Positions 4,339 to 32,480 of a DNA stretch of 42,255 nucleotides are shown one piece after another. Below the pieces are notes generated by a model that was not told the DNA's origin, searched no databases, and worked only from the letters and a program-made list of their open reading frames with translations. The translations under genes and the position numbers were made by a program. The DNA is from a virus, in the IMG/VR virus record IMGVR_UViG_3300035701_000083, positions 1 through 42,255 of that record. One strand, 5' to 3'. The first letter of the stretch is position 1; each line of letters begins with the position of its first letter.

Positions 4339-4599
4339 ATGAACAAGAAATTTGCTTTATCCCTATGTTTGGCGGCGCTGACATTCGTCGCGGCACGCAG
4401 CACCACGGCTCCGGTCTGGGATACCTGCCCGGGACCGGTGGCTTATCGCGGCGGCATCATCGTCACCGCCTGTGTGCACAAAGCCGTCGAATGCCCCAAG
4501 GTCTACGACGCCCCAAAAACCCTCAACGTTGATATCCAATGCTGGACCTGGTTCCCCGGCGATGATGGCATGGCTCCGCACTGGCAGTTACAGCCGTGA
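4339..4599 (+). CDS. Small exported Cys-containing protein (copy 2)
   Basis: This 86-residue paralog of the leftward gene at 2568-2828 differs at a minority of positions; DTCPGP, ACVHKAVECPKVYDAP and the DIQCWTWFPGDD region are the same. It has a signal sequence with core ALSLCLAALTFVAA, then Cys residues likely in disulfides. It is made with the lytic operon, while copy 1 reads with the repressor direction, so the phage could express one form as prophage and the other in lytic growth (inference). SD AAGGAG is well placed. Its TGA overlaps the GTG of the next micro-ORF. Confidence 0.75.
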   Translation: MNKKFALSLCLAALTFVAARSTTAPVWDTCPGPVAYRGGIIVTACVHKAVECPKVYDAPKTLNVDIQCWTWFPGDDGMAPHWQLQP

Positions 4600-4685
4600 A
4601 GCGGAAGCATTGGTTCTGGATCGTCTGGATAATTCTGATGCTGTCCGCGGTGGCTTTGGGGGTGATGTTATGGCTCTATTACTAA
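4596..4685 (+). CDS. 29-residue membrane micro-protein
   Basis: A GTG overlapping the TGA of the exported-protein gene (GTGA) opens a 29-codon frame: KRKHWFWIVWIILML, then SAVALGVMLWLYY and stop. It is a basic N-terminus followed by one unbroken hydrophobic helix. Its end overlaps the start (4670) of the next membrane protein by 16 bases. Translational coupling on both sides and the TM-like composition argue that it is real, but it is too short to be sure. Confidence 0.45.
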   Translation: MKRKHWFWIVWIILMLSAVALGVMLWLYY

Positions 4686-5002
4686 TTGGGATAGTACTTG
4701 TCACCGGGATACTCATCGGCTGGTTCTGGCGCTCCGAGATCGCCGAGCGCGAGAAGCTCGAGGCCAGGGTAACCCTCCTCGAGGCCGCGAATCTGACAGG
4801 TCGCGGTGCGCTCCCGCTCAACGTCGAGAACTCGATGCTAGAGGAGATCGCCAACATCCTGAAAGCCAGGCGTCACATCGAGGAGATGGACGTCTACATA
4901 GCCGGTCTGCGCCGCATCCAGGATGTCGCCCGCAGCTCGCTGAACGAAGCCATGGACATCAACGGAGAGATCCGCAGCAAGCCGCGCAATATAAAAAAAT
5001 AG
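4670..5002 (+). CDS. Membrane-anchored coiled-coil protein
   Basis: Residues 2-20 (ALLLIGIVLVTGILIGWFW) are one N-terminal membrane helix. The rest of the 110 residues is charged helix with coiled-coil spacing (EIAEREKLEARVTLLEAAN, EEIANILKARRHIEEMDV). I start it at ATG 4670, preceded by GGGGGTGA; the frame is open further upstream only because it runs across the exported-protein gene. Topology is like a spanin or a membrane-tethered accessory protein, but it is in the early region, so the role is unknown. Confidence 0.65.
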   Translation: MALLLIGIVLVTGILIGWFWRSEIAEREKLEARVTLLEAANLTGRGALPLNVENSMLEEIANILKARRHIEEMDVYIAGLRRIQDVARSSLNEAMDINGEIRSKPRNIKK

Positions 5003-5015
5003 AAAAGGAGAAGAT

Positions 5016-5255
5016 ATGTTCCTCCGACAATTTATCGCATCAATTTTGTTCGGCTTCTTGCTTGTTTGCCTGATTATTCCCATGATTTGGGTGTTGATTA
5101 TTTTGGCATTCAAGGTGGATGAGAAGATCGACCAGGCCTGTGGCATATGCACATGCTTCGAGTTTGCGGGAGATAACCCGATTTGCCCAGTTCATCAATT
5201 TGTACATCCAAATTGTAGGTGTAATTTGGTGGAATTTAATCCAAAGGAGAAATGA
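5016..5255 (+). CDS. Membrane protein with cysteine-rich tail
   Basis: This is a 79-residue protein. Residues 6-32 (FIASILFGFLLVCLIIPMIWVLIILAF) are a long hydrophobic segment. The tail has CGICTC, ICPVH and NCRC, seven Cys/His that could bind zinc. It starts at ATG 5016 behind AAAAGGAGAAG. It belongs to the run of small early membrane proteins between 4339 and 5255. Function unknown. Confidence 0.6.
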   Translation: MFLRQFIASILFGFLLVCLIIPMIWVLIILAFKVDEKIDQACGICTCFEFAGDNPICPVHQFVHPNCRCNLVEFNPKEK

Positions 5256-5256
5256 T

Positions 5257-6135
5257 ATGCCTAATAAATTAGAACCAATTGAAACTACCGGCGGCTGGAT
5301 CGATGGTCATTTGGTTGAGCTTATGTTTGACCGTGAGCAAATGAAGACCGCGTTTGTAGTGAAATATCCAGATGGTTTGCTCGAAATCTGCATGAATGTG
5401 ATCATCAAGGGAAGAGAATATATCCCTCAACATCTGGATGATCTTTTAACCAAGAATATTGTTTTACTGCCGATGAAACTGGGAAAATCATGCTCTCTAT
5501 CCGAGCTTAGGTTAAGCATCTGGAGTTTTTTGGATAAATACTTTGATTTCAAGGGAGATGAATTTAATGATCGGCAGTGCAACATTTATGTTTTAAATTC
5601 CTGGATATATGATAACCACAAAAGGACACCGTACTTATGGGTGACAGGGAATTATGGATCCGGCAAGACTCGTTTGCTGGACACAGTTGGCTGTATTTGT
5701 TACCGCCCAATGCGATTTAATGTGAGATCAACAGCATCGGCTATCCTGCGGAGCCTTGATCTATATCACGGTACGCTTTTGCTGGATGAGGTTGATTATT
5801 ACAAATCATCTTACCTTTCAAATGAAATAGAGATCATCAATAATATTCTAAGTGCGGGAACCTATAAAGGGAATATTCTATCGTTGGAAATGGACTTAGA
5901 TGGTGAGATAGCACAGGAGGGCATCTATAACGTTTATGGACCAAAAGTGATCACAACTCTGAAGGAATTTAATGATCAACCATTCAAAAGTCGTTTTCTG
6001 AAGATAAATTTGGGCGATGGCAAACTCAGCCCAAGAATCCCGCAGATATTGCCGGATAAATTTTGGCAGGAGGCGGAAGAAGTCCGGAATTTGCTGCTCG
6101 CTTACCGGATGGCAAACGCAAAGGAGATTAAATAA
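5257..6135 (+). CDS. Stand-alone copy of the replicative helicase ATPase domain
   Basis: This 292-residue protein aligns from its first residues (EPIETTGGWIDGHLVEL) with the middle of the large helicase at 9122-10948 (EPIETAGGWIRGHLVEL). It ends at the matching LLLAYRMA, so it lacks that protein's N-terminal 115 residues and C-terminal winged helix. Walker A is GNYGSGKT (about 130-137), Walker B LLLDEVD (about 174-180), and VYGPKVITT with a downstream SRF is conserved where the helicase has VYGPKVIGT and SRC. The gene is much more AT-rich than its paralog, so the duplication is old or one copy was imported. It may act with, regulate or compete with the helicase, or serve a different step (inference). 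Start at ATG 5257 after AAAGGAGAAATG. Confidence 0.8.
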   Translation: MPNKLEPIETTGGWIDGHLVELMFDREQMKTAFVVKYPDGLLEICMNVIIKGREYIPQHLDDLLTKNIVLLPMKLGKSCSLSELRLSIWSFLDKYFDFKGDEFNDRQCNIYVLNSWIYDNHKRTPYLWVTGNYGSGKTRLLDTVGCICYRPMRFNVRSTASAILRSLDLYHGTLLLDEVDYYKSSYLSNEIEIINNILSAGTYKGNILSLEMDLDGEIAQEGIYNVYGPKVITTLKEFNDQPFKSRFLKINLGDGKLSPRIPQILPDKFWQEAEEVRNLLLAYRMANAKEIK

Positions 6136-6150
6136 TTAAAAATAAATCCA

Positions 6151-6222
6151 GCCCTGCCCCGTCCGTGTTCGCCTCTGGGCGGTCGGGTTTCTCCCCCGCA
6201 TGAAAGCACGACGGGGCGGGGT
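6151..6222 (+). promoter_or_regulatory. Structured leader before the second recombinase
   Basis: Two GC-rich arms (CCTGCCCCGTCCGTG near 6153-6167 and CACGACGGGGCGGGG near 6207-6221) can pair over about 14 bp, with one mismatch and one bulge, around a 39-base apical region. The element ends some 23 bases before ATG 6245. No T-run follows, so it reads as an mRNA leader structure or a DNA site rather than a terminator. It is more GC-rich than the gene before it. Confidence 0.45.
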
Positions 6223-6244
6223 GGAAAGATCAAAGGAGATTGAC

Positions 6245-7174
6245 ATGAACACCCAAACGCAAGAACTGACCGAAACGAAAACCAGCTCCAACTGGCTCGA
6301 CGATTACAGCCAGCACGTCCGCAGCCACTGCGCCTCCAGGCTGACCGTGATTTCCTACCTGCAGGAGGTGCGCTCGTTCGTCGCCTGGTTCGAGCAGACC
6401 AACCAGGAGGCGTTCACTCCAGACCTGCTCAACGGCACCGACATCCGTGAGTACGCGCGCCGCTGCATGGCCGTCAACAAGCCCTCCACCTGGAACCACA
6501 AGCGCACGGTGCTCAAGTCGCTTTGCGATTGGGCGTTGGAGAGCGGCTTTCTCACGTACAACCCATTCCGCGACATCCCCCTGGGCAGGTCGGTCGATCT
6601 CGCCCCGCGCTGGCTCGATCGCAGCGCTTACAGCCGTCTCACCCGTCATCTCGAGCTCGCCACCAACTCCCCCCAAACCGATGCCCGGCGCAGGCAGGCG
6701 GTCCGTGACCAGGCGCTCGTCAGCCTGATGTTGTATGCCGGTCTGCGCGTGGCCGAGGCCGTCGCCCTGGACACTCCCGATCTGGAGATATCCGAGCGCA
6801 AGGGTCGGGTCATTATTAGGCATGGTAAGGGAGATAAGAGGCGCGAGGTCCCGCTGGGCAGTGATGTGCGGCGTGCGTTAGCTGCCTGGCTGGCGATCCG
6901 GGGCGGAACGCCCGGACCTGTGTTTGGCGGCAAAAACTCCGATCGCATCACCACCCGACAGGTGCAGCGCATTGTGGAATCCATCGGTCAAGCCTGCCAG
7001 CTAGATGTCGGGTCCACACCGCACCGGCTGCGGCATACCTGCGCCAAGCGTTTGCTCGATAACGGTGCGCCGCTCACAGTGGTCTCGAAGATCCTCGGTC
7101 ACGGCAGCCTGAACGCAACTGTTCGCTACACCCTGCCTGGCTGGGATGATCTCGAAGCCGCGGTGAATAATTGA
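6245..7174 (+). CDS. Second tyrosine recombinase (XerC/D-like)
   Basis: This 309-residue recombinase has a SAM-like N-terminal domain (SRLTVISYLQEVRSFVAWFE) and a complete catalytic set: R168 (AGLRVAEAV), K195 (GKGDK), H260-x-x-R263 (HRLRH), H286 (LGHG) and Y295 (VRYTLPG). ATG 6245 follows AAAGGAGAT at good spacing. Codon use is C-ending and differs clearly from the AT-rich gene before it and the G-rich genes after it, a sign of separate origin. A tRNA-like element begins 8 bases after the stop. It could resolve multimers, integrate at a second site, or come from a smaller mobile element inserted in the phage (inference). Confidence 0.9.
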   Translation: MNTQTQELTETKTSSNWLDDYSQHVRSHCASRLTVISYLQEVRSFVAWFEQTNQEAFTPDLLNGTDIREYARRCMAVNKPSTWNHKRTVLKSLCDWALESGFLTYNPFRDIPLGRSVDLAPRWLDRSAYSRLTRHLELATNSPQTDARRRQAVRDQALVSLMLYAGLRVAEAVALDTPDLEISERKGRVIIRHGKGDKRREVPLGSDVRRALAAWLAIRGGTPGPVFGGKNSDRITTRQVQRIVESIGQACQLDVGSTPHRLRHTCAKRLLDNGAPLTVVSKILGHGSLNATVRYTLPGWDDLEAAVNN

Positions 7175-7182
7175 TTATCTTT

Positions 7183-7241
7183 GGGACATAATGGCGTTGC
7201 TTTTTTACCAGGCAAGGCGGGTTCGATTCCCGCATGTCCCA
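7183..7241 (+). ncRNA. D-arm-less tRNA-like element
   Basis: Acceptor GGGACAT (7183-7189) pairs with ATGTCCC (7234-7240), extendable by two bases outward to TTGGGACAT/ATGTCCCAA; discriminator A is 7241. The T arm is perfect: GCGGG/CCCGC around TTCGATT. A middle hairpin TTGCTT/AGGCAA (one G-T pair) closes a 7-base loop TTTTACC. Only seven bases join acceptor and middle stem, so there is no D arm, and the total is 59 nt. Read as a tRNA, the anticodon would be TTA, which would read UAA; CC after the anticodon is atypical. Alternatives are a deleted tRNA remnant, the att site of the adjacent recombinase, or a tRNA-mimic RNA. Confidence 0.5.
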
Positions 7242-7242
7242 A

Positions 7243-7312
7243 TCGCGTGGCGGTGCACCACGCGACTCCTTTGAAAGCCCTGGGTTGTGTGCCGGTCACT
7301 CAGCCCAGGGCT
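7243..7312 (+). ncRNA. Two perfect hairpins after the tRNA-like element
   Basis: Hairpin 1 has TCGCGTGG (7243-7250) and CCACGCGA (7258-7265) around CGGTGCA. Hairpin 2 has AGCCCTGGG (7276-7284) and CCCAGGGCT (7304-7312) around 19 bases. Neither has a T-run. Together with 7183-7241 they make about 130 bases of strongly structured, apparently non-coding sequence. They may be parts of a small RNA or recombinase recognition sites. The gap 7313-7523 holds nothing else I can support. Confidence 0.4.
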
Positions 7313-7523
7313 GAAGGGTCAACCCCGATGCGGTTTTGCGCAATAAGATTATTTAGTAGCAGGAAAAATCTCTTTCTTCACTTTTACCCTACGTTTACGT
7401 CCCCGGGCGCACGCGTGGGAGAAACGACGCTCGCTTTGTGTCGCATATTATCAAGATGTGGACATGATCAGGGTTTTTTGGATGATTTTCGGGCTGAAAT
7501 AGGGTCATTATCGAGGCGAATTT

Positions 7524-7637
7524 ATGTCGCATAACACGGAACCAGGGTGGGGGGCAGCTTTCAAGGCGGAGGAGGGGGGGAGGCCGTGGGCACGCGGGAA
7601 GGCACAGCGAAATATCCAGGAGAAACGAGGTAAATAA
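7524..7637 (+). CDS. 37-residue basic peptide
   Basis: ATG 7524 (GAGGCGAA upstream) opens MSHNTEPGWGAAFKAEEGG, then RPWARGKAQRNIQEKRGK and stop, just ahead of the next ATG at 7639. It is basic and Gly/Arg-rich. It fits tightly in the early operon, but nothing else supports it. Confidence 0.35.
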   Translation: MSHNTEPGWGAAFKAEEGGRPWARGKAQRNIQEKRGK

Positions 7638-7638
7638 G

Positions 7639-7851
7639 ATGATGGCAAAATGTCAATTGCAAGCAATGTTTCGATATACGTGGCCATGCAAAGATGAAGC
7701 GATAGTTTGTATCATACATGCCCAGGAATTGCTGAACACCGCCAATGCATTGAGTTTCCATTTGCAGATGATCCCTTTGACCCCCGATGAGATGTATGGT
7801 CAGTCCTGTTCTCAAAATGTTCGGGAAGAGCAGGATGATGGTGATGGATAA
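7639..7851 (+). CDS. Small early protein of unknown function
   Basis: This is a 70-residue protein starting at ATG 7639 or 7642, after a purine-rich GAGAAACGAGG. It looks like a compact alpha/beta protein (CKDEAIVCIIHAQELLNTANAL, then FHLQMIPLTPDEMYG) with an acidic end. It overlaps the next small gene. No family recognised. Confidence 0.5.
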   Translation: MMAKCQLQAMFRYTWPCKDEAIVCIIHAQELLNTANALSFHLQMIPLTPDEMYGQSCSQNVREEQDDGDG

Positions 7852-8011
7852 CAATTCGCAGATTCGATTGATGTTGAATAGTGATCAAGCCAAAGAGATC
7901 AAGAAATGGCTTCTTGCTGATATGCTTTTTGATTTTCGTCTGCTTGGTTGGAGCATATCAGTTTGGGTGGCATGGCCGTTTCTTTTGATAAGGCATATTG
8001 GTAATGGATGA
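7844..8011 (+). CDS. Small protein with a hydrophobic C-terminal segment
   Basis: This is a 55-residue protein (MDNNSQIRLMLNSDQAKEIKKWLLADML...). In-frame starts also exist at 7835 and 7838, nearer to the SD-like GGAAGAGCAGG. The C-terminal 25 residues (LLGWSISVWVAWPFLLI) could be a membrane helix. The stop overlaps the primase start by 8 bases, suggesting translational coupling. Function unknown. Confidence 0.45.
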   Translation: MDNNSQIRLMLNSDQAKEIKKWLLADMLFDFRLLGWSISVWVAWPFLLIRHIGNG

Positions 8012-9125
8012 TTTTTTGGACTACATTGAGGACGTGAAGCTGGCGAACCCGATCGAGGACGTGATCGAGGAGAGCGGGTACAAGTTGTCAGGGGGGCATG
8101 GCTCGACCAGGCGGGGCGTAGGCAAGGACCATGACAGCCTGGTGGTCAGCATCAACAAGCAGCTATTCTACTGGAACAGCCGGGCTGCCGATGGCTGGCG
8201 GGGGGATGTGATCAGGTGGGTAGAGAAACATAAGGGCGTGGATTTCCAGGGGGCGCTCGATCACCTGGCAAAGCGGGCGGGGATCTCCCCGCCGGTATGG
8301 TCCGGAGCGGATCCGGAAACGATCCAGACCAGGCGAACGACTGAGGACGTGATGGGGATTGCTGCTACTGTGTTCCATCGCTGGTTGATCGGCGATGAAG
8401 AGAAGGACGTCAAACCCGACCAGGATGCGCTGGACTACGTGCGGGGTAGGGCGTGGACGGAGGAGACCATCGAGGCGGCGATGATCGGGTTCAGCGGGAG
8501 GAAGCAGGCCTGGCAGATACAGGACATGACCGGCGACTTCAACCTGCACGGGATAGACGTGCAATCACCGGCGGCGGTGATGGTGCTGGGCTTCGCAGGG
8601 AACGTGCGGGAGTGGGGACAACACTGGGATATCGACATATCAGCCTGGGATGAGAAGGAACGCATCCACGGGCTGATGGATACGCCGGGGGTGATCTACG
8701 TGCACTACTACAACGGCAGCGCACGCTACCTGACACGCAGGCAACTGCCCGGGTTTGACGTGATCAAGAGCGAGGGAAAAGAACGGGCGTGGAAATCATT
8801 CAACCCGCCGGTGGTGCTGGCGGGCTACAGGCAGCCGTACTACAACCACGTGTACAGGCGGGATGCGCCGGATTGCGTGATCGTGGAGGGGCAGGGGGAT
8901 GCGGTGTCGCTGGCGCAGCTGGGACGGCCAACGGTGGCGCTGTGCGGGGTCACGGCCAGGGACGCGGGGATGGAGAGACTGCAGCGGGTCCTGAGCAAGC
9001 ACCAGGCGTTATATCTGGCGCTGGACAGCGATCTGGCTGGGAAAGCCAGCGCATGGATGGTGGCGAGGGAGTTCGGGCCGATGGTGCGGATGGTGAGTTG
9101 GGCAGATAAGGAGGGCAATTCGTGA
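8004..9125 (+). CDS. DnaG-type Toprim primase, C-terminally split
   Basis: This is a 373-residue replication primase. Residues 25-90 keep the layout of the CHC2 zinc-binding domain (SLVVSINKQLFYWNSRAADGWRGDVIRWVEKHKGVDFQGALDHLAKRAGI), but every cysteine is missing, so it cannot bind zinc in the usual way. The Toprim core is clear: CVIVEGQGDAVSLAQLG (catalytic Glu) near 290 and LYLALDSDLAGKAS (D-x-D) near 335. The sequence stops inside the end of the Toprim fold; the expected KDANDL motif is in the next gene. The stop lies inside a palindromic repeat (9113-9136). I use ATG 8004; an in-frame TTG at 7998 is possible. Confidence 0.85.
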   Translation: MDDFLDYIEDVKLANPIEDVIEESGYKLSGGHGSTRRGVGKDHDSLVVSINKQLFYWNSRAADGWRGDVIRWVEKHKGVDFQGALDHLAKRAGISPPVWSGADPETIQTRRTTEDVMGIAATVFHRWLIGDEEKDVKPDQDALDYVRGRAWTEETIEAAMIGFSGRKQAWQIQDMTGDFNLHGIDVQSPAAVMVLGFAGNVREWGQHWDIDISAWDEKERIHGLMDTPGVIYVHYYNGSARYLTRRQLPGFDVIKSEGKERAWKSFNPPVVLAGYRQPYYNHVYRRDAPDCVIVEGQGDAVSLAQLGRPTVALCGVTARDAGMERLQRVLSKHQALYLALDSDLAGKASAWMVAREFGPMVRMVSWADKEGNS

Positions 9126-9136
9126 ATTGCCCCAAC
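9113..9136. repeat. Palindromic repeat (family A) splitting primase and helicase
   Basis: GGGCAATTCGTGAATTGCCC plus CAAC forms a near-perfect palindrome. It holds both the primase TGA (9123-9125) and the helicase GTG (9122-9124). Removing 23 bases (9114-9136) joins the two frames in phase. Other copies: 12097, 17486, 23079, 32062. Confidence 0.9.
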
Positions 9137-10948
9137 GAAGGCCCCAACAAAGACGCAAACGACCTGATCGTTGATTGGAAGGCGGAGGGGATATCGCCGG
9201 AGGAACAAAGCGAGCGGCTGGGACTGCTGCTGCAACACGCCAAGCCATTCGTCGTGTGCATGGCCGAGCGGGTGGCGGAGATGGACGGACCGGCGCGGGA
9301 CCTGGGTATGCGGGAGGTATCCGGGCTGGCAGCCCAGATGGATGGGCATGAGCAGGCGATCTATAAGGAACAGATATGCGAGGTGCTGCACATCGGGAGG
9401 AGGGAGTTCAAGGAGCTGGTCAAGGCCAGCATCAAGGGGGAGACGGACGAGGAGGATAAGAGTGAGCCGATCGAGACGGCAGGCGGCTGGATACGTGGCC
9501 ACCTGGTGGAGCTGCTGTACGACCGGCAGACTATGAAGACGTCGTTCGTGGTGCGCTACCCGGATGGGAAGATCGAGGCCAGGCACAACATCATCATCGA
9601 AGGGAAGAAATACATTCCGATATACCCGGACAGCCTGCTGACCCGAGACGTGGTGCTGCTGCCAACCAGGTTGGAGGCGCTGCGTCCCACGGTCGAGCTG
9701 GTGGGGATCATCCGGGCGCACCTGAACCGGTACTTCGATTTTGGCAGCGATGAATTCTTCGAGAGGTTGTGCGCCTACTACGTGATGTTCTCATGGGTAT
9801 ATGACGGGTTCACGACGGTTCCATATATCCGGGCACTGGGAGATACCGGGACGGGAAAGTCCCGGCTGCTGGACACGGTGGGCAACGTCTGCTACAGACC
9901 GATCCGGATCACAGGCGGATCGTCTGCATCCAGTATCTTCCGCACGCTGGACCTGTATCACGGGACGCTGGTATTGGATGAGGCGGATTTCGCCAAATCA
10001 GACGAGGCGACGACCATCGCCAAGGTACTGAACGGGGGAAACCAAAAAAACCGGCCACTGCTGCGCATGATGGAGGCGGGTAACGGGAAATGGTCGGTAC
10101 AGGCGTTCGACGTATATGGTCCAAAGGTAATAGGGACGCGGAAGGGATTCGGGGACAGGGCGATCGAGAGCCGATGCCTGACCAAAGAGACCGGGGGAGG
10201 GGTGCCACATCCGAGGATCCCGCTGGAACTGCCGCGTGTCTTCTGGCAACAGGCTGAGGAAATCCGAAACCTGCTGCTGGCGTACCGGATGGCGACGGCG
10301 CAAGAACAGCGGGAGGTGGATTACAGCGGGGTGGACCGATCAGTCGAGCCGCGGCTTAACCAGGTCACGTTAGCTCTCGTTACCATCATCGAGGATGAAG
10401 AGCTGCGCACGGAGATCCGGGGATTCATCAAGGATTACAACGAACAATTAAAAGTAGAACGCAGCGGGACGATGACAGCCAGGGTGCTGGAGGCGTTGGT
10501 GCAGTGCTGGGGGAGAGGCACGACGACGGCGAGCGAGGAGATCAACCGGATCTACCTGAAGGACTTGGCGGAGGCGACGAACGAGATCGTGGATGAACAG
10601 AACCGGCAAATGGGGGACGAGGTGGAGACGGCGACGGTGGATGAGGAGGGGAGGAAGAAAAAGTCATCCAGGATGACGAGCCGGAGGGTGAGCGATACGG
10701 TGCGGAAGTACCTGCAGCTGAAGGTTTTGCGGGCGACGGACGGGGAGAAGGGGCGCAAGGGGACGAACTACGTGGTGTGGGACCAGGAACGGGTGGATGC
10801 GCTGTGCGAGCGGTTCGGGGTGGAGATGGTGGGGCGCGGGAGCTTGAAGAAACAGATGGCTTTTGGTGAGGAGGAACGGGGGAAGTGGAAGGCGCTGGAT
10901 GAGAAGAATAAACAGGAAACGATGGAGATGAGGTCTGGAAATGAATAG
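9122..10948 (+). CDS. Phage replicative helicase/ATPase (D5/VirE-like) with Toprim remnant
   Basis: This is a 608-residue protein. Residues 8-18 (PNKDANDLIVDW) look like the end of a Toprim domain (consensus gKDaNDll), left over from the split with the upstream primase gene. Residues 20-115 are a helical linker. The ATPase region begins at about 115 (EPIETAGGW): Walker A GDTGTGKS (about 240-247), Walker B LVLDEAD (about 283-289), and VYGPKVIGTRKGFGDRAIESR with a likely sensor/arginine finger. The C-terminus (about 515-570, SRRVSDTVRKYLQLKVLRAT...KGTNYVVW) is a winged helix. The GTG start overlaps the previous TGA (GTGA), so re-initiation is likely. Expected role: unwinding at the phage origin. 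Confidence 0.82.
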   Translation: MNCPNEGPNKDANDLIVDWKAEGISPEEQSERLGLLLQHAKPFVVCMAERVAEMDGPARDLGMREVSGLAAQMDGHEQAIYKEQICEVLHIGRREFKELVKASIKGETDEEDKSEPIETAGGWIRGHLVELLYDRQTMKTSFVVRYPDGKIEARHNIIIEGKKYIPIYPDSLLTRDVVLLPTRLEALRPTVELVGIIRAHLNRYFDFGSDEFFERLCAYYVMFSWVYDGFTTVPYIRALGDTGTGKSRLLDTVGNVCYRPIRITGGSSASSIFRTLDLYHGTLVLDEADFAKSDEATTIAKVLNGGNQKNRPLLRMMEAGNGKWSVQAFDVYGPKVIGTRKGFGDRAIESRCLTKETGGGVPHPRIPLELPRVFWQQAEEIRNLLLAYRMATAQEQREVDYSGVDRSVEPRLNQVTLALVTIIEDEELRTEIRGFIKDYNEQLKVERSGTMTARVLEALVQCWGRGTTTASEEINRIYLKDLAEATNEIVDEQNRQMGDEVETATVDEEGRKKKSSRMTSRRVSDTVRKYLQLKVLRATDGEKGRKGTNYVVWDQERVDALCERFGVEMVGRGSLKKQMAFGEEERGKWKALDEKNKQETMEMRSGNE

Positions 10949-11761: not shown

Positions 11762-12094
11762 ATGAGCGAGTATAAGATCAATCCATATTTGAGCGGGACG
11801 GAGATGATCAGCAGGGAGCGGAGAAGGCAGGTCATAAAGGAGGGGTACAACGCGGATCATGATGCGAGACACGAGCCAGGGGCACTGGCGATGGCGGCAG
11901 CGGTGTACATCATGGGGGCGTGCTCAGGGATGCGGGGTGGAGGAGAACGACCAGGGGAGGTGATGATCTGCTGGCCATTCGAGGTTTCGGCTTACAACCC
12001 GAAGGATCCGCTGCGGGATTTGGTGAGGGCGGGGGCGTTGATCGCAGCGGAGATAGACAGGATGATGAGGGTGGAGGATGTTGGAGATGAGTGA
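11762..12094 (+). CDS. Conserved-type phage accessory protein (RRRQ..GY..DHD motif)
   Basis: This 110-residue protein is MSEYKINPYLSGTEMI, then SRERRRQVIKEGYNADHDARHEPGALAMAAAVYI, a WPFE segment and DLVRAGALIAAEIDRMMR. I recall this pattern from small early-region proteins of many tailed phages, whose function is unknown. ATG 11762 is directly after GGAGGTTGAG; an upstream in-frame ATG (11750) is less likely. A family A palindrome follows three bases after the stop. Confidence 0.65.
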   Translation: MSEYKINPYLSGTEMISRERRRQVIKEGYNADHDARHEPGALAMAAAVYIMGACSGMRGGGERPGEVMICWPFEVSAYNPKDPLRDLVRAGALIAAEIDRMMRVEDVGDE

Positions 12095-12096
12095 AA

Positions 12097-12120
12097 GGGC
12101 AATTCGTGAATTGCCCCAAC
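12097..12120. repeat. Palindromic repeat, family A
   Basis: GGGCAATTCGTGAATTGCCC plus CAAC, identical to the copy that splits the primase-helicase. It sits in the gap between 11762-12094 and the zinc-ribbon gene at 12140. Confidence 0.9.
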
Positions 12121-12139
12121 GGGAGGACGGAGGATCAAT

Positions 12140-12340
12140 ATGAGTAAAGAGACTGTGGAATTCACCGAGATCGCCAGGAGAGAGTACGCGGCGATCATCG
12201 AGCGGAGGTACATTTTCGAGATGCACTGGTGCCAGTTTTGCAGTCGGCAGACGATGCAGCGGCTGGAGATGCGGGGGACGCAGCACGAGAAGCGGTGGTG
12301 CCCGATATGCAGGATCGGGAAGATGGCGAGGGTGAGGTGA
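12140..12340 (+). CDS. Zinc-ribbon protein
   Basis: This is a 66-residue protein with two CxxC knuckles, WCQFCS (about 30-35) and WCPICR (about 53-58), a classic zinc ribbon. The N-terminal 25 residues are helical and acidic/basic. SD GGAGGA precedes ATG 12140. Its TGA overlaps the GTG start of the methylase (GTGA), so the two are probably coupled. It may bind nucleic acid or the methylase; unknown. Confidence 0.65.
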   Translation: MSKETVEFTEIARREYAAIIERRYIFEMHWCQFCSRQTMQRLEMRGTQHEKRWCPICRIGKMARVR

Positions 12341-17485: not shown

Positions 17486-17538
17486 GGGCAATTCGTGAAT
17501 TGCCCTTACAGATTAGGGCGGGGACCCCGCCCCTACAG
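17486..17538. repeat. Family A and family C palindromes, back to back
   Basis: GGGCAATTCGTGAATTGCCC plus TTAC (17486-17509), then AGGGCGGGGACCCCGCCCCT plus ACAG (17515-17538). The second element runs into the AGGAGG ribosome binding site of the next gene. Confidence 0.85.
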
Positions 17539-17547
17539 GAGGTAACG

Positions 17548-18000: not shown

Positions 18001-18663
18001 ATGCCAATAAAGCCGAGTGAGCTGGATATACAGCAGATGATCTTCGAGGGTTGGGAGAGCTTCGACGAGGCGGCGGAGGATGCCGCGGAACGAGCGATCC
18101 CGCCGGAGGAGGCGCGGCTGATATCGGAGACGGCGCGGGGGGCTTTCCAGCGAAAAGGTGAAAGCGGTGAGGTGCCAGCCTGGTTCGGGGATTACCTGCA
18201 ACTGCGGGAGATGGGCTGGCCGTGGCGGGTGGCGACGTATATCGCATGGGCGGCATCGGTGAAGACAAATCGCTGGCCAAAAACATTGAACGAGCTGGCG
18301 ACGGATGTGCTGGGACTACGCAGCCCACGAGCGGTGCATACCTGGCGGGAAAAGTATCCTACGATCGGGGCAACGATATCTATCATGCAGGCGATGCCAT
18401 TAATGGAATACCGGCGGGATCTTTTCGAGGCGACAATCAGAGCCGGGTTAGGGGATTACAAGGGAAATCGAGATCGCAGGCTGGCTTTGGAAATGACGCA
18501 AGATTATATCCCGCATTTGAAGATCGAGGAGAGGCAGCTGGGCAAGATCACAGATCTGAGCGGCGTGAGCCGGGAGGACCTGGAGAAAATCGGGGGAGGA
18601 AAATTGAGGGAGGCGCTGGTCAGATTACAGGTCGAGGGAGGGTCGGATGAGAATGGCGGATAA
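18001..18663 (+). CDS. terS: Probable terminase small subunit
   Basis: This is a 220-residue protein directly upstream of the large subunit. Residues 60-125 have a helix-turn-helix-like pattern (YLQLREMGWPWRVATYIAWAASVKTNRWPKTLNELATDVLGLRSPRAVHTWREKYPTIG) as expected for recognition of the packaging site. The C-terminal part is helical and charged (IEERQLGKITDLSGVSREDLEKIGG). ATG 18001 is chosen over the upstream in-frame ATG because the upstream residues only translate the family D repeat. The gene end (VEGGSDENGG and stop) is repeated three more times downstream with the repeat. Confidence 0.7.
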   Translation: MPIKPSELDIQQMIFEGWESFDEAAEDAAERAIPPEEARLISETARGAFQRKGESGEVPAWFGDYLQLREMGWPWRVATYIAWAASVKTNRWPKTLNELATDVLGLRSPRAVHTWREKYPTIGATISIMQAMPLMEYRRDLFEATIRAGLGDYKGNRDRRLALEMTQDYIPHLKIEERQLGKITDLSGVSREDLEKIGGGKLREALVRLQVEGGSDENGG

Positions 18664-18827
18664 TCGCAAACCAGCGGTTTGCGTTACGGTCGAGGGAGGG
18701 TCGGATGAGAATGGCGGATAATCGCAAACCAGCGGTTTGCGTTACGGTCGAGGGAGGATCGGATGAGAATGGCGGATAATCGCAAACCAGCGGTTTGCGT
18801 TACGGTCGAGGGAGGATCGGACAAGAA
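18630..18827. repeat. Tandem 58-bp repeat of the terS end plus palindrome
   Basis: Three full 58-bp units (18630, 18688, 18746) and a partial fourth (18804). Each holds 34 bases of the terS 3' end including its TAA, and a family B palindrome variant GCAAACCAGCGGTTTGC with GTTAC. Only 1-2 bases differ between units, so the array is recent. Confidence 0.92.
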
Positions 18828-18843
18828 TGATGATGACGGATAA

Positions 18844-20477: not shown

Positions 20478-21927
20478 GAAAAAGGGCGACGTGACGTCGC
20501 CCCTACGGGTAAAAGATCTGGAGCGGGCGTTCAAGATGTTGAACAGTAAGAAACTCGTCTATGACAAGCTGTTCAACTACTACGAGGGCAAACAACCGCT
20601 GGTGTACCTAGCGAGCAGGCTGGACGAGATATTCAAGGACTTAAACGCTTACTTCGCGGAGAACTGGTGCTCGGTGGTGATCGACTCGGCACGGGACCGG
20701 ATCAACCTGAAGGAGATCCAGATCCAGGACGTCACGGCGGCGAAGACGTGGGCGGAGATCTGGGAGAGGTCGGAGCTGGCGCTGGAGAGCGACGAGGTGC
20801 ACGAGGCGGCGATGGTGGCGGGTGAGGGCTACGTGGTGGCATGGCCGGACAACGAGGGCAGGATCGAGGCGTATGCGAACGATCCGCGCATGTGCCATAT
20901 TTTCTATGAGCCGGAATTCCCACGGAAGAAAAAATTTGCGGCGAAATGGTGGGTGGATGACGGCGAGCGGATGCGGATGACGCTGTACTACCCGGACAGG
21001 CTGGAGTACTACATCAGCAGCAAGAAGGCGGAAAACGTCACGAGTTATCAATCGCTGGTGGCGATGAAGGTGGACAAGGCGGAAAACAAGTTCAAGGAGG
21101 TACCGGTATTCCATTTCCGGCTGGCGAGGAAATTGAAGAGCGACCTGACGAACGTGGTGCCGATACAGAACGGGATCAACAAGATCCTGACGGACATGAT
21201 GGTGACGGCGGAGTTCCAGGCGTTCCCGCAGCGGTACGTGATCAGCCAGGCGGATATCAAGGGTAAGCTGAAGAACGCGCCGAGGATGATCTGGGAGCTG
21301 CCAGCGGGGGACGGGATGAGCCAGCAGACGGTGGCGGGGCAGTTTGCGGCGGCGGATCTGGAGAACTACCTGAAGGCGATCGACAACCTGGCGGGGGCGA
21401 TCTCATCGATCACGCGGACGCCGAAGCACTATTTTTTCAGCGTGGGATCGAATTTATCAGGAGAAGCACTTATTGCGATGGAGGCGCCGCTAAACAAGAA
21501 GGCGAAGGACCGGATCGACCGGTTCACGCCAGCGTGGAAGCAGACGGCGTTGTTCATGCTGCGGGCGGCGGGGGTGACGATCGAGGCGAGCAAGGTGAAC
21601 GCGATCTTCGACAAGCCGGAGACGATCCAGCCGAGGACGCAGGCGGAGACGCGGCAGATGAACGTGATAGCGGGTCTGCCGATACGGACGATTTTGCGGG
21701 AGGAGGGGAAATCGGAGGAGGAGATCAAGCAGGTGGAGAGGGATATCGCGGAGGCGAAGACGGCGCAGGCGAACCTGGCGAGCGCGTACCTGGCGGAGGC
21801 GAGGAAGAAGTTCGACCAGGAGAACCCCAACCTGAACCCCACCCTGAACCCCACCCCTAACCCCTCCCCATCGGAAAAACACCGATGGAGAGGGGAAATG
21901 GAGAGGGGAAATGGAGGGGATGAATGA
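20467..21927 (+). CDS. Portal protein (SPP1 gp6-like)
   Basis: This 486-residue protein is expected to form the dodecameric channel at one capsid vertex. LFNYYEGKQPL near the start, NWCSVVIDSARDRI, a long DPRM...YYPDRLEYY central part, IQNGINKILTDMMV, SITRTPKHYFFSVGSNLSGEALIAMEAPL and the helical stem fit SPP1-type portals. It sits between terminase and MuF genes, the standard order. Residues 7-14 (GDVTSPL) are encoded by a family C palindrome (20484-20506), and the last 30 residues (NPTLNPTPNPSPSEKHRWRG...) by a family D repeat (21835-21898). So both ends of an essential protein carry repeat-derived peptides. Confidence 0.9.
   Translation: MPDEKKGDVTSPLRVKDLERAFKMLNSKKLVYDKLFNYYEGKQPLVYLASRLDEIFKDLNAYFAENWCSVVIDSARDRINLKEIQIQDVTAAKTWAEIWERSELALESDEVHEAAMVAGEGYVVAWPDNEGRIEAYANDPRMCHIFYEPEFPRKKKFAAKWWVDDGERMRMTLYYPDRLEYYISSKKAENVTSYQSLVAMKVDKAENKFKEVPVFHFRLARKLKSDLTNVVPIQNGINKILTDMMVTAEFQAFPQRYVISQADIKGKLKNAPRMIWELPAGDGMSQQTVAGQFAAADLENYLKAIDNLAGAISSITRTPKHYFFSVGSNLSGEALIAMEAPLNKKAKDRIDRFTPAWKQTALFMLRAAGVTIEASKVNAIFDKPETIQPRTQAETRQMNVIAGLPIRTILREEGKSEEEIKQVERDIAEAKTAQANLASAYLAEARKKFDQENPNLNPTLNPTPNPSPSEKHRWRGEMERGNGGDE
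20484..20506. repeat. Family C palindrome inside the portal gene start
   Basis: GGGCGACGTGACGTCGCCCC plus TAC within codons 6-14 of the portal gene. Confidence 0.88.
21835..21898. repeat. Family D repeat inside the portal gene end
   Basis: Doubled AACCCCACCCT(A/G)AACCC arms followed by CATCGG-A(n)-CCGATG and AGAGGGG, all in the portal reading frame. It continues into short GGAGAGGGGAAAT units and the overlap with the next ATG. Confidence 0.85.
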
Positions 21928-22973: not shown

Positions 22974-23606
22974 ATGATCTACGGATTGAAAGGTTTGAAT
23001 TTCTACCCTGATGCCGGGGGAGGCAGCACGAGTGCTGCATCTTCAACCGGTGCGGGTGGGAATGAGGGCAAAGTTGGAGGGGCAATTCGTGAATTGCCCC
23101 AACAGGCTGACCAGGGAAGGAATGAAGGCGAGACGCTGACATTCGAGAGCTGGATTGCCGGGCAACCGAAAGAGGTAAAGGATTTGCTGGATGGGCATAC
23201 GGCGGGCTTGAGGACGGCGCTGGGGTCCGAGCGGGAGATCCGCGAGGACACCGAGAAGAAGCTGCGAACGATGGCCGAGAAGGCCGAAAAAGGGAGTGAG
23301 TCCCAAAGGCAGCTGGTCGAGATGGCCGACAAGATTGCGGAATCAGATCAAAAAGCCGATTTCTACGAGGATGCTCATGCGGCGGGCGTGACGAACCTGA
23401 AGCTGGCGTACATCGTGGCGAAGCAGGAGGAGCTTTTCGACAAGCGGGGCCGGGTGAATTTCGAGGCGATGAAGAAAGATTACCCGGAGTTGTTTGCCGG
23501 AACGGTCAATGCTGCGGGAAACGCGGGCAGCGGGACGGAAGGGAACCTGGCAGGCAAGGGCGATATGAATACTTTCATAAGGCAGTCTGCCGGGAGGGGA
23601 ACGTAG
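22974..23606 (+). CDS. Probable scaffold protein, with a repeat-encoded internal peptide
   Basis: This is a 210-residue protein just before the capsid gene. Residues 60-130 form a highly charged helix with coiled-coil character (SEREIREDTEKKLRTMAEKAEKGSESQRQLVEMADKI), as in scaffolds. The tail MNTFIRQSAGR is typical of this type. The N-terminal 45 residues are Gly/Ser-rich; inside them GAIRELPQ is the translation of a family A palindrome (23079-23103). A 25-base insertion is not a multiple of three, so the present frame must have been adjusted around it or the peptide is in a tolerant N-terminus with a changed start. Confidence 0.78.
   Translation: MIYGLKGLNFYPDAGGGSTSAASSTGAGGNEGKVGGAIRELPQQADQGRNEGETLTFESWIAGQPKEVKDLLDGHTAGLRTALGSEREIREDTEKKLRTMAEKAEKGSESQRQLVEMADKIAESDQKADFYEDAHAAGVTNLKLAYIVAKQEELFDKRGRVNFEAMKKDYPELFAGTVNAAGNAGSGTEGNLAGKGDMNTFIRQSAGRGT
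23079..23103. repeat. Family A palindrome inside the scaffold gene
   Basis: GGGGCAATTCGTGAATTGCC plus CCAAC, read through in frame as GAIRELPQ. Confidence 0.9.
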
Positions 23607-23747: not shown

Positions 23748-24710
23748 ATGCCATACAACAGTTTAATCAGCCGCAGTGATGCGGCAGCGCTGATCCCCGA
23801 GGAGGTCAGCAAGGAGCTTTTGACCCAGATCACGGAGGAAAGCGCGGTGATGAGGTTGAGCCGGAGGTTGGCGGATATGAGCCGGGCGCAGAAACGGATG
23901 CCGGTGATGTCGGCGCTGGCGACAGCGTATTTCGTGAGCGGTGATACCGAGTTGAAGCAGACCAGTGAAGTGAACTGGGCAAACAAGTATATCGATGCCG
24001 AGGAGCTGGCAGTCATCGTGCCAATCCCGGAGGCGGTGCTGGATGATGCTGACTACGATATCTGGGGCGAGGTGAAACCCAGCGTGGCGGAGGCTTTCGG
24101 GATCGCGATCGATGCGGCGGTGCTGTACGGGACGAACATCCCGGCAAGCTGGATAATCAACCTGGGGGCGGCAGGCTTGATAGCGGGTGCGCTGGCGGCC
24201 AGCCACCAGATCTCGGCGGCAGCCTACACGGACCTATACGAGGCGATCCTGGCGGAGACGGGGGCGGGCGCCGACGGGTTGTTCATGCTAGTGGAGGCTG
24301 ACGGCTACATGGTCACGGGCGCTCTGGCGCACATGTCGATGAAGGGCAAGCTGCGCAACGTGCGCGACACGAATGGGCAACCGATATTCAAATCGACGAT
24401 GCAAGCGCCGACGAGCTACGAGCTGGACGGCAATCCGATCCTGTTCCCGAAGAGCGGGGCGATCTCGGCGACGTACTGGCTGATCGCAGGGATGTGGGCG
24501 AGCCTGGTGTACGCCATGCGGCAGGATATCACGTACAAGATCCTGACGGAGGCGGTGATCACGGATGCGAGCGGGAAGATCATCTATAACCTGGCGCAGC
24601 AGGACATGGTGGCGCTGCGGGCGGTAATGCGCCTGGGCTTTGCGCTGCCACACCCGGTGACCCGGATGGATACGGGGACGGGTTATCCGTTTGCGACGTT
24701 GACGGCGTGA
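23748..24710 (+). CDS. Major capsid protein (HK97 fold)
   Basis: This 320-residue protein follows the scaffold gene, as in most siphoviruses. LIPEEVSKELLTQITEESAVMRLSRRL at the start, KRMPVMSALATAYFVSGDTELKQTSEVNWANKYIDAEELAVIVPIPEAVLDDA (E-loop/P-domain region) and the C-terminal HPVTRMDTGTGYPF fit the phage major capsid family of the HK97 fold. No N-terminal delta domain is obvious because a separate scaffold exists; no protease gene was seen, so the prohead is probably not proteolysed. AGGAGGT-like SD GGAGGT precedes ATG 23748. Confidence 0.9.
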   Translation: MPYNSLISRSDAAALIPEEVSKELLTQITEESAVMRLSRRLADMSRAQKRMPVMSALATAYFVSGDTELKQTSEVNWANKYIDAEELAVIVPIPEAVLDDADYDIWGEVKPSVAEAFGIAIDAAVLYGTNIPASWIINLGAAGLIAGALAASHQISAAAYTDLYEAILAETGAGADGLFMLVEADGYMVTGALAHMSMKGKLRNVRDTNGQPIFKSTMQAPTSYELDGNPILFPKSGAISATYWLIAGMWASLVYAMRQDITYKILTEAVITDASGKIIYNLAQQDMVALRAVMRLGFALPHPVTRMDTGTGYPFATLTA

Positions 24711-24711
24711 C

Positions 24712-24857
24712 CCCACCCCTAACCCCTCTCTTAACCCCACCCCTAACCCCTCCCTTAACCCCACCCCTAACCCCTCCCCATCGGGAAAACACCGATGGAG
24801 AGGGGAATAGAGCGGAGAATGGAGAGGGGAATGGAGAGGAGAATGGAGAGGGGAAGA
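24712..24857. repeat. Family D repeat, expanded array
   Basis: Three units of CCCCACCCCTAACCCCTC on the left arm, the CATCGG/CCGATG hairpin, then about five units of GGAGAGGGGAAT on the right arm. Pyrimidine and purine arms have expanded separately. It fills the gap after the capsid gene. Confidence 0.85.
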
Positions 24858-31436: not shown

Positions 31437-31706
31437 ATGGCGAAGAGGAAGGATATTCCAGTTGAGACAAAGATCGAGGAAAGCGGCACCATTTTGGTAG
31501 CCAAGAACGCCACCATTTACAGGTCCGGGAAGTGGAACAGGATCACGCAGTACGCCTGCAATCTGTGCTCGTTCGACGTGCTGGAGGATGAGAACCTGAT
31601 GCTGGAGCATATCCTGGAAAGGCATTATTCACAGGCGGCAGCCGCGGAGGTATTGGAGGCGGCGACGGAACCAACAGACGGAGGTAAAAAATGGCAGACA
31701 GAGTAG
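31437..31706 (+). CDS. C2H2 zinc-finger-like protein in the tail operon
   Basis: This is an 89-residue protein, start at ATG 31437 after AAAGGAGA (upstream in-frame GTG at 31422 is possible). Residues about 44-68 (YACNLCSFDVLEDENLMLEHILERHY) have the spacing C-x2-C-x13-H-x4-H of a classical C2H2 finger. The preceding residues are beta-rich (SGTILVAKNATIYRSG). C2H2 fingers are uncommon in bacterial viruses, and the role in a tail operon is unknown. It overlaps the start of the next gene by 16 bases. Confidence 0.6.
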   Translation: MAKRKDIPVETKIEESGTILVAKNATIYRSGKWNRITQYACNLCSFDVLEDENLMLEHILERHYSQAAAAEVLEAATEPTDGGKKWQTE

Positions 31707-32056
31707 TTGTAACCAAGACGACGGCGCCGGGAGGCTATCCGAGTTTGCAGCCGGCGGTGAACTCGCTGGATGTGACGTTCGAGGCGGCGAATGTGGCCAA
31801 CGGCAACCGGTTCGTGGCGAGCGGGAAGGACCTGGTACTGGCGTGGAACACAGGCGCCGAAGCATACACGGTGATCCTGACGTCGATCGAGGATGAGAAG
31901 AAACGGACGGGCAACATCGCCAACTATTCGATCGGGGCGAGCGAGATCGCGGTGATCGGGCCGGTGCCGACGGACGGTTGGCTGCAGGCGGATGGCTACA
32001 TCTGGCTGTCGGCGAACAATGCGGCGGTGAAATTCGCGGTGATCACGCTGCCGTAG
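31691..32056 (+). CDS. Small virion protein, duplicate copy 1
   Basis: This is a 121-residue beta-rich protein. ADRVVVTKTTAPGGYPSLQP, then NRFVASGKDLVLAWNT, YTVILTSIEDEKKRTGNIANYSIG and DGYIWLSANNAAVKFAVITLP. Such sequences are found among tail or decoration proteins of siphoviruses. The next gene is a duplicate. ATG 31691 sits inside the end of the zinc-finger gene after GGAGGTAAAAA. Confidence 0.65.
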   Translation: MADRVVVTKTTAPGGYPSLQPAVNSLDVTFEAANVANGNRFVASGKDLVLAWNTGAEAYTVILTSIEDEKKRTGNIANYSIGASEIAVIGPVPTDGWLQADGYIWLSANNAAVKFAVITLP

Positions 32057-32061
32057 GATGA

Positions 32062-32086
32062 GGGGCAATTCATGAATTGCCCCAAC
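32062..32086. repeat. Palindromic repeat, family A
   Basis: GGGGCAATTCATGAATTGCC plus CCAAC: here with CATG in the centre, a perfect palindrome. It separates the two duplicated virion genes. Confidence 0.9.
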
Positions 32087-32111
32087 GCAACAAAAAAAAC
32101 GGAGGTGAAGG

Positions 32112-32480
32112 ATGGCTGATAGAGAGGTTCTGACCAAGACGACGGCGCCGGGAGGTTACCCGAGTTTACAACCAGCGGCGAACTCGCTGGATATCGTGTT
32201 CACGGCGGCGAATATCGTCGACGATAACCGGTTTGTGGCGAGCGGCAAGGATTTGATCCTGGCCTGGAACACGCACGGAGTGAATGCGTACACGGTGATC
32301 CTGACGTCGATCGAGGATGAGAAGAAACGGACGGGCAACATCGCCAACTATTCGATCGGGGCGGGCGAGATCGCGGTGATCGGGCCGGTGCCGAAGGATG
32401 GCTGGCTGCAGGCGGACGGCCATATCTGGCTGTCGGCGAACAATGCGGCGGTGAAGTTCGCGGTGATAGCGCTGCCTTAA
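32112..32480 (+). CDS. Small virion protein, duplicate copy 2
   Basis: This 122-residue protein is about 80 percent identical by eye to the product of 31691-32056, with long identical DNA stretches such as the one covering TVILTSIEDEKKRTGNIANY. One residue is inserted (NTHGVNAYT for NTGAEAYT). A recent tandem gene duplication is likely, with a family A palindrome at the boundary. Two versions could assemble in different places or vary a surface. GGAGGTGA precedes ATG 32112. Confidence 0.7.
   Translation: MADREVLTKTTAPGGYPSLQPAANSLDIVFTAANIVDDNRFVASGKDLILAWNTHGVNAYTVILTSIEDEKKRTGNIANYSIGAGEIAVIGPVPKDGWLQADGHIWLSANNAAVKFAVIALP

Follow-up and report, generated by a model that had tools for sequence, protein, structure and literature searches.

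How a phage primase and its helicase-like partner came to be parted inside a short palindrome, and whether the palindrome parted them, is the question raised by this locus. The genes lie in a 42,255-base IMG/VR virus record, the whole of which was analysed and is here called the window, where the primase ORF (7998-9125) and the helicase-like ORF (9122-10948) share the 4 nt GTGA at 9122-9125. The features of the junction are these.

7998-9125, + strand: DnaG-type primase gene whose Toprim domain is without its last motif; 375 aa from the TTG at 7998, with an ATG at 8004
9107-9114, + strand: Shine-Dalgarno-like stretch TAAGGAGG, 7 nt upstream of the GTG, its final two G being palindrome bases
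9113-9132, + strand: palindrome GGGCAATTCGTGAATTGCCC with the stop and start codons; 20 bp, 8- to 9-bp stem
9122-10948, + strand: AAA+ helicase-like gene; 608 aa from a GTG start, opening with the Toprim tail KDAND
9133-9136, - strand: REP-like tag, CAAC on the + strand and GTTG on the - strand
9149-9163, + strand: KDAND, the final Toprim motif, carried by the helicase protein and aligned with K236-D237-A-N of T7 gp4

ORF coordinates and sequence place both the primase TGA (9123-9125) and the helicase GTG (9122-9124) at the center of GGGCAATTCGTGAATTGCCC. Thus, an earlier sequence-only reading of this DNA was correct that stop and start overlap as GTGA in the middle of a palindrome and that the repeat provides both codons as they now stand. 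It had drawn the palindrome from 9113 to 9136; the repeat is indeed present, but the 20-bp palindrome ends at 9132 and the remainder is the tag CAAC, the two together making a 24-base unit. An in-frame TAA at 9107 ends the helicase frame upstream, and no start codon except GTG 9122 was found in that frame between the TAA and KDAND at 9149. GTG 9122 therefore is the sole start that retains KDAND. The TAA also begins TAAGGAGGGCAATTC-GTG, which forms an excellent ribosome-binding site with its final G bases derived from the palindrome. The junction RNA is predicted to fold as a hairpin (z, -2.7 to -3.0) whose stem is 8 to 9 bp and whose loop holds the codons. So strong a Shine-Dalgarno-like stretch and so stable a hairpin at an overlap could suggest that ribosomes shift frame at the hairpin, join the two frames, and still make a fused protein. 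We consider frameshifting most improbable, however, and without support, because no canonical slippery heptamer was seen by inspection between TAA 9107 and TGA 9123. Moreover, the relatives described below have the helicase in another frame, most have no palindrome at the junction, and three have extra genes or remnants between primase and helicase.

What the junction interrupts is the catalytic domain of the primase. The protein is a DnaG-type (Toprim) primase with zinc-binding and Toprim domains: it matches Pfam Toprim_2 and a PHROG DNA primase, it has the EG and DxD motifs in its sequence (VEGQGDA and ALDSDLAG), and both PDB and fold matches are to DnaG; its Pfam match to the zinc domain falls under the cut-off. 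The AlphaFold model (pLDDT 87) has DnaG 2au3 as its best PDB match (E, 7e-12) and also matches a T7 gp4 primase fragment. The window primase does not hold a complete Toprim domain in one chain. It matches positions 1-65 of the 88 in Toprim_2, whereas the fused relative L014 matches positions 1-87, and therefore the domain is truly cut. When aligned with phage T7 gp4, the KDAN of the fused relatives falls on K236-D237-A-N, and in the window that motif stands at 9149 in the helicase protein, where the sequence-only reading had placed the end of the Toprim fold (KDANDL). D237 of T7 gp4 presumably participates in the Toprim active site. PMC5517523 names no metal binders other than a glutamate and a DxD motif, and for that reason the importance of D237 is something that we infer here. 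The split within Toprim leaves the final motif of the domain on the helicase protein, and so priming may require both chains.

The partner of the primase is a putative helicase. It carries Walker A (GDTGTGKS) and Walker B (VLDEAD) motifs in its sequence, and its name derives from those motifs and from its fusion to the primase in relatives. No Pfam family reached threshold, the structure model (pLDDT 69) was too weak to place and gave no PDB match at E<0.001, and neither a PDB profile search nor a search by fold placed the ATPase in a helicase superfamily. We note that a shorter second copy of the ATPase (51% identity over 296 residues) lies at 5119-6135, without the Toprim tail or the C-terminus, and adjoins an integrase gene (6200-7174).

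Whether the palindrome made the cut can be judged from relatives, which were drawn from IMG/VR scans. The helicase alone as a query returned only L006, the nearest relative, and a four-row alignment query returned the useful relatives. Twenty-five are fused (L014, L018, L019, L021, L023-L028, L030, L031, L033, L040, L190-L196, L198, L200, L202, and L203), and 15 distinct records besides the window are split (L006, L011, L012, L013, L015, L016, L017, L020, L022, L029, L176, L184, L186, L188, and L189; L187 matches L186 and was not counted as distinct). Thus, the fused homologs without the repeat that the sequence-only reading had asked for do exist. Most run uninterrupted through WP..KDAN or similar, as in RILRWPDGKDANDWL; no KDAN-like motif was found in fused L019. 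All 15 split relatives are broken at the breakpoint of the window, every one has, close to the helicase start, a D[AVI]N motif ([KV]D[AVI]N or similar), and none has the window palindrome at the junction. When the complete records of 12 relatives were searched with at most two mismatches allowed, the palindrome was found only in the contig of L006, at another place, and no inverted repeats with arms of at least 6 were found at the junctions of L176, L184, L186, and L188. We conclude that the repeat entered an old junction and did not create it, because relatives without the repeat are split at the same place. The sequence-only reading had taken as its refutation related phages in which the genes are all separate and the junctions unrelated to the palindrome, and within the clade that is what was found.

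The window junction nevertheless differs from the others. In 12 of 12 adjacent split pairs, the overlap between a candidate helicase ATG, in frame +1, and the primase stop measures 8, 11, or 14 nt, whereas the 4-nt GTGA overlap and a helicase in frame +2 belong to the window alone among split forms. The palindrome therefore altered a junction that was already there. L006 retains an 8-nt overlap in frame +1 (ATGGGTAA) at its first KDAND copy and carries a different palindrome, GGGCGGGGCGACCCCGCCC, at its primase/helicase junction; the IMG/VR scans contained no relative closer to the window and L006 with a palindrome-free split junction. Between primase and helicase (5995-7803), L006 has an extra 95-codon ORF (5715-6002) with no Pfam match. 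KDANDL stands, in different codons, both at the start of that ORF and at the start of the helicase (MAKDANDL), as if an incoming gene had brought a duplicate of the helicase start with it. Other junctions are also occupied: that of L189 holds a whole C5-cytosine methyltransferase (4568-6199; PF00145; E, 1e-25), and that of L012 holds a methyltransferase-like remnant (5657-5815). Finally, some relatives keep what looks like a KDA relic at the primase C-terminus (PREDA, and EKDA in L020), and a small out-of-frame duplication could have caused the split.

A tree of joined primase and helicase sequences, unrooted and with junction tails trimmed, has one branch that separates all split forms, the window included, from the fused forms (support, 100/100 for 24 rows; 100/99 for 34 rows). 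The window and L006 sit on a long branch. Constraining the two to group with the 12 nearest fused forms incurs a cost of 25.6 log units, and that arrangement is rejected (p-AU, 0.00059). L176 looks mosaic, with a split-type primase and a helicase that is nearer the fused group and falls among fused forms, and for that reason the final tree omits it; with L176 included, support falls to 81/98 and two changes are needed instead of one. Since the trees are unrooted, a single change fits either direction, and the two-gene state might be ancestral and the fused forms the product of later fusion, in which case the palindrome would still be a late arrival. We regard that order as distinctly unlikely. 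Fused forms are more diverse and occur in several deep lineages, T7 gp4 too carries its entire Toprim domain on a single chain, and a primitive state with its breakpoint within a catalytic domain would be difficult to arrive at. The choice of fission over fusion depends on this last point, namely, that such a break is derived.

Could the window lineage have been split by its palindrome independently of the other split phages? Fused homologs exist, and deletion of 20 or 23 bases reopens the window frame, the Trp codon being 47 nt from KDAND. Deletion of 24 bases (palindrome plus tag) or 25 does not, and as one length in three restores a frame by chance, excision is weak evidence for insertion. 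The sequence-only reading had removed 23 bases, and a single open frame does result, but removal of 20 works as well and removal of the tagged unit fails. We therefore rejected the 23-base excision as proof of insertion, as its outcome depends on the boundary chosen. The best point for an insertion that split the gene is that removal of the bare palindrome leaves a 27-nt in-frame linker both in the window and in L006, whose palindrome is 19 bp (as counted from the sequences), which is what a second, independent fission predicts. Against that point, split relatives without the repeat group with the window on the tree, the breakpoint and the opening motif are common to the window and the other split phages, L006 has another palindrome at its junction, and excision of the tagged 24-base unit fails to restore the frame. 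Thus, an independent split by the palindrome seems unlikely, and the earlier claim that the repeat converted one fused protein to a pair does not survive relatives that are split at the same site without the palindrome and form one group on the tree. The palindrome as cause of the fission was rejected on those two grounds, the junctions of the split relatives and the tree grouping. Moreover, simple excision does not yield the frame of the relatives, which implies that remodelling of the junction took at least two steps. We hold it very probable that an old fission in Toprim was followed by late capture of the junction stop and start by a REP-like element.

The captor belongs to a family. The 20-mer, with CGTG or CATG at its center, occurs in five copies, at 9113 and at the four places below, where shuffled sequences give an expectation of 0.

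12097-12116, + strand: second copy, just past the stop at 12094; a different palindrome is at this junction in the contig of L006
17486-17505, + strand: third copy, between genes; a different palindrome comes next, at 17516-17532
23080-23099, + strand: fourth copy, within a 210-codon ORF (22974-23606)
32063-32082, + strand: fifth copy, with the CATG center, between duplicated genes (31691-32056 and 32112-32480)

GGGC-stem-GCCC palindromes number 9 in the window and 15 in the contig of L006 (0.07 and 0.06 in shuffles). A tag of the pattern [CGT][AT]A[CT] follows on the 3' side in 9 of 9 and 14 of 15, respectively, and never on the 5' side. Read on the other strand, a tagged palindrome is GTAG plus a hairpin, the GTAG REP form; the window tags there are GTAG, GTTG, or GTAA, the copy at 9113 having GTTG, a degenerate form. 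The window element is REP-like: it is a short repeated palindrome (20 bp, five copies, in a class of nine), a GTAG or degenerate tetranucleotide stands at one end only in all nine window palindromes, and it is mostly extragenic (12097, 17486, and 32063 are intergenic, 9113 is in an overlap, and 23080 is inside an ORF). At four orthologous junctions the stems differ between the window and L006 (9113/19779, 12097/22787, 17486 plus 17516/27647, and 18844/28869 plus 28924), and at one they agree (15499/26100). No palindrome with the tag was found in five Chloroflexota genomes. The exact palindrome was present in 1 of 400 Chloroflexota genomes (G335), in eight copies mostly flanked by GTAG and CTAC; that genome has two Y1_Tnp matches. 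No Y1/RAYT-type transposase domain was found in the phage records (the window and G001).

Several further repeats were seen in the window. In a post hoc observation, the central GTG or ATG of three of the four other copies begins a frame of 13 to 16 codons (VNCPN... or MNCPN...; 12106-12147, 17495-17545, and 32072-32119) that ends at or overlaps the start of the next gene, like a leader peptide. A different GTAG-tagged palindrome (20484-20502) lies just past the terminase stop (20477) within the 5' end of the portal ORF (start, 20467) and may encode part of the portal N-terminus; the contig of L006 has none there. The genes that flank the fifth copy form a tandem duplication (31691-32480) whose proteins are 85% identical. 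Other repeats at 18630-18829, 21812-21880, and 24698-24790 comprise a 58-bp tandem array and 12-bp ACCCCACCCCTA-type arrays, the latter standing before a CCCCATCGG...CCGATGG hairpin.

The behavior of the element has precedents. Di Nocera et al. 2013 (PMC3733652) found GTAG REPs in Chloroflexi among others, located at gene ends, supplying stop codons to flanking ORFs, lying within DNA replication and repair genes, and, in different versions, occupying about the same site of recB. The sequence-only reading had known of no described case of such a junction, which is too strong given these reports; they make the window junction a variant of described behavior. Like those REPs, the window element is a short palindrome that carries a GTAG-type tag on one side and lies at the ends of genes. 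It differs in being in a phage, in its low copy number (5 near-identical copies, 9 of the class), in a tag that often is GTTG, in that one element gives both stop and start, and in phage records without a Y1/RAYT-type transposase domain. A limited literature search found no REP that gives both stop and start in a phage. The start-associated sequences of cluster K mycobacteriophages (PMC3203893) likewise are short repeats dispersed at phage translation starts, some with inverted repeats, but they are asymmetric 13-mers upstream of the start, whereas the window palindrome contains the start, and we claim no sequence kinship. As for the proteins, T7 gp4 has Toprim primase and helicase in one chain and shares the KDAN motif, but the window chain is broken just before KDAN and its ATPase is not assigned to the T7 type. 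The T4 primase gp61 and helicase gp41 are, like the window pair, separate proteins, and according to PMC10359460 they assemble into a primosome. In T4 the break falls between whole domains, and in the window it falls inside Toprim.

We propose the following history. In the ancestor of the phage group, an AAA+ helicase-like ATPase would have been fused to a DnaG-type primase, and the gene would have broken once, in Toprim, after the last strand and ahead of the KDAN motif. The halves would since have been kept as two overlapping genes, probably translationally coupled. Later, in the window lineage, a REP-like palindrome would have settled at the junction and come to provide both codons, stop and start; an ancestral ATG overlap, 8 to 14 nt long, would thereby have become a 4-nt GTGA overlap with a Shine-Dalgarno sequence partly made by the repeat. 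Ribosomes that end the primase would melt the hairpin and reinitiate at the GTG, giving matched amounts of the two proteins, which would assemble so that the helicase N-terminus completes the primase Toprim domain. We further suggest, tentatively, that across the whole phage group Toprim may be completed in trans by the helicase N-terminus, with an aspartate equivalent to D237 of T7 gp4, that priming may occur only in the assembled two-protein complex, and that the overlapping genes may couple synthesis.

A repeat that lies exactly at a break does not prove that the repeat made the break, and the locus corrects an attractive story. It also presents a REP-like element that has appropriated the stop and start codons where two phage replication genes meet. 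The fission in Toprim is of more interest than the repeat at the junction, as a conserved fission within the catalytic domain of a primase predicts that priming would depend on the helicase partner.
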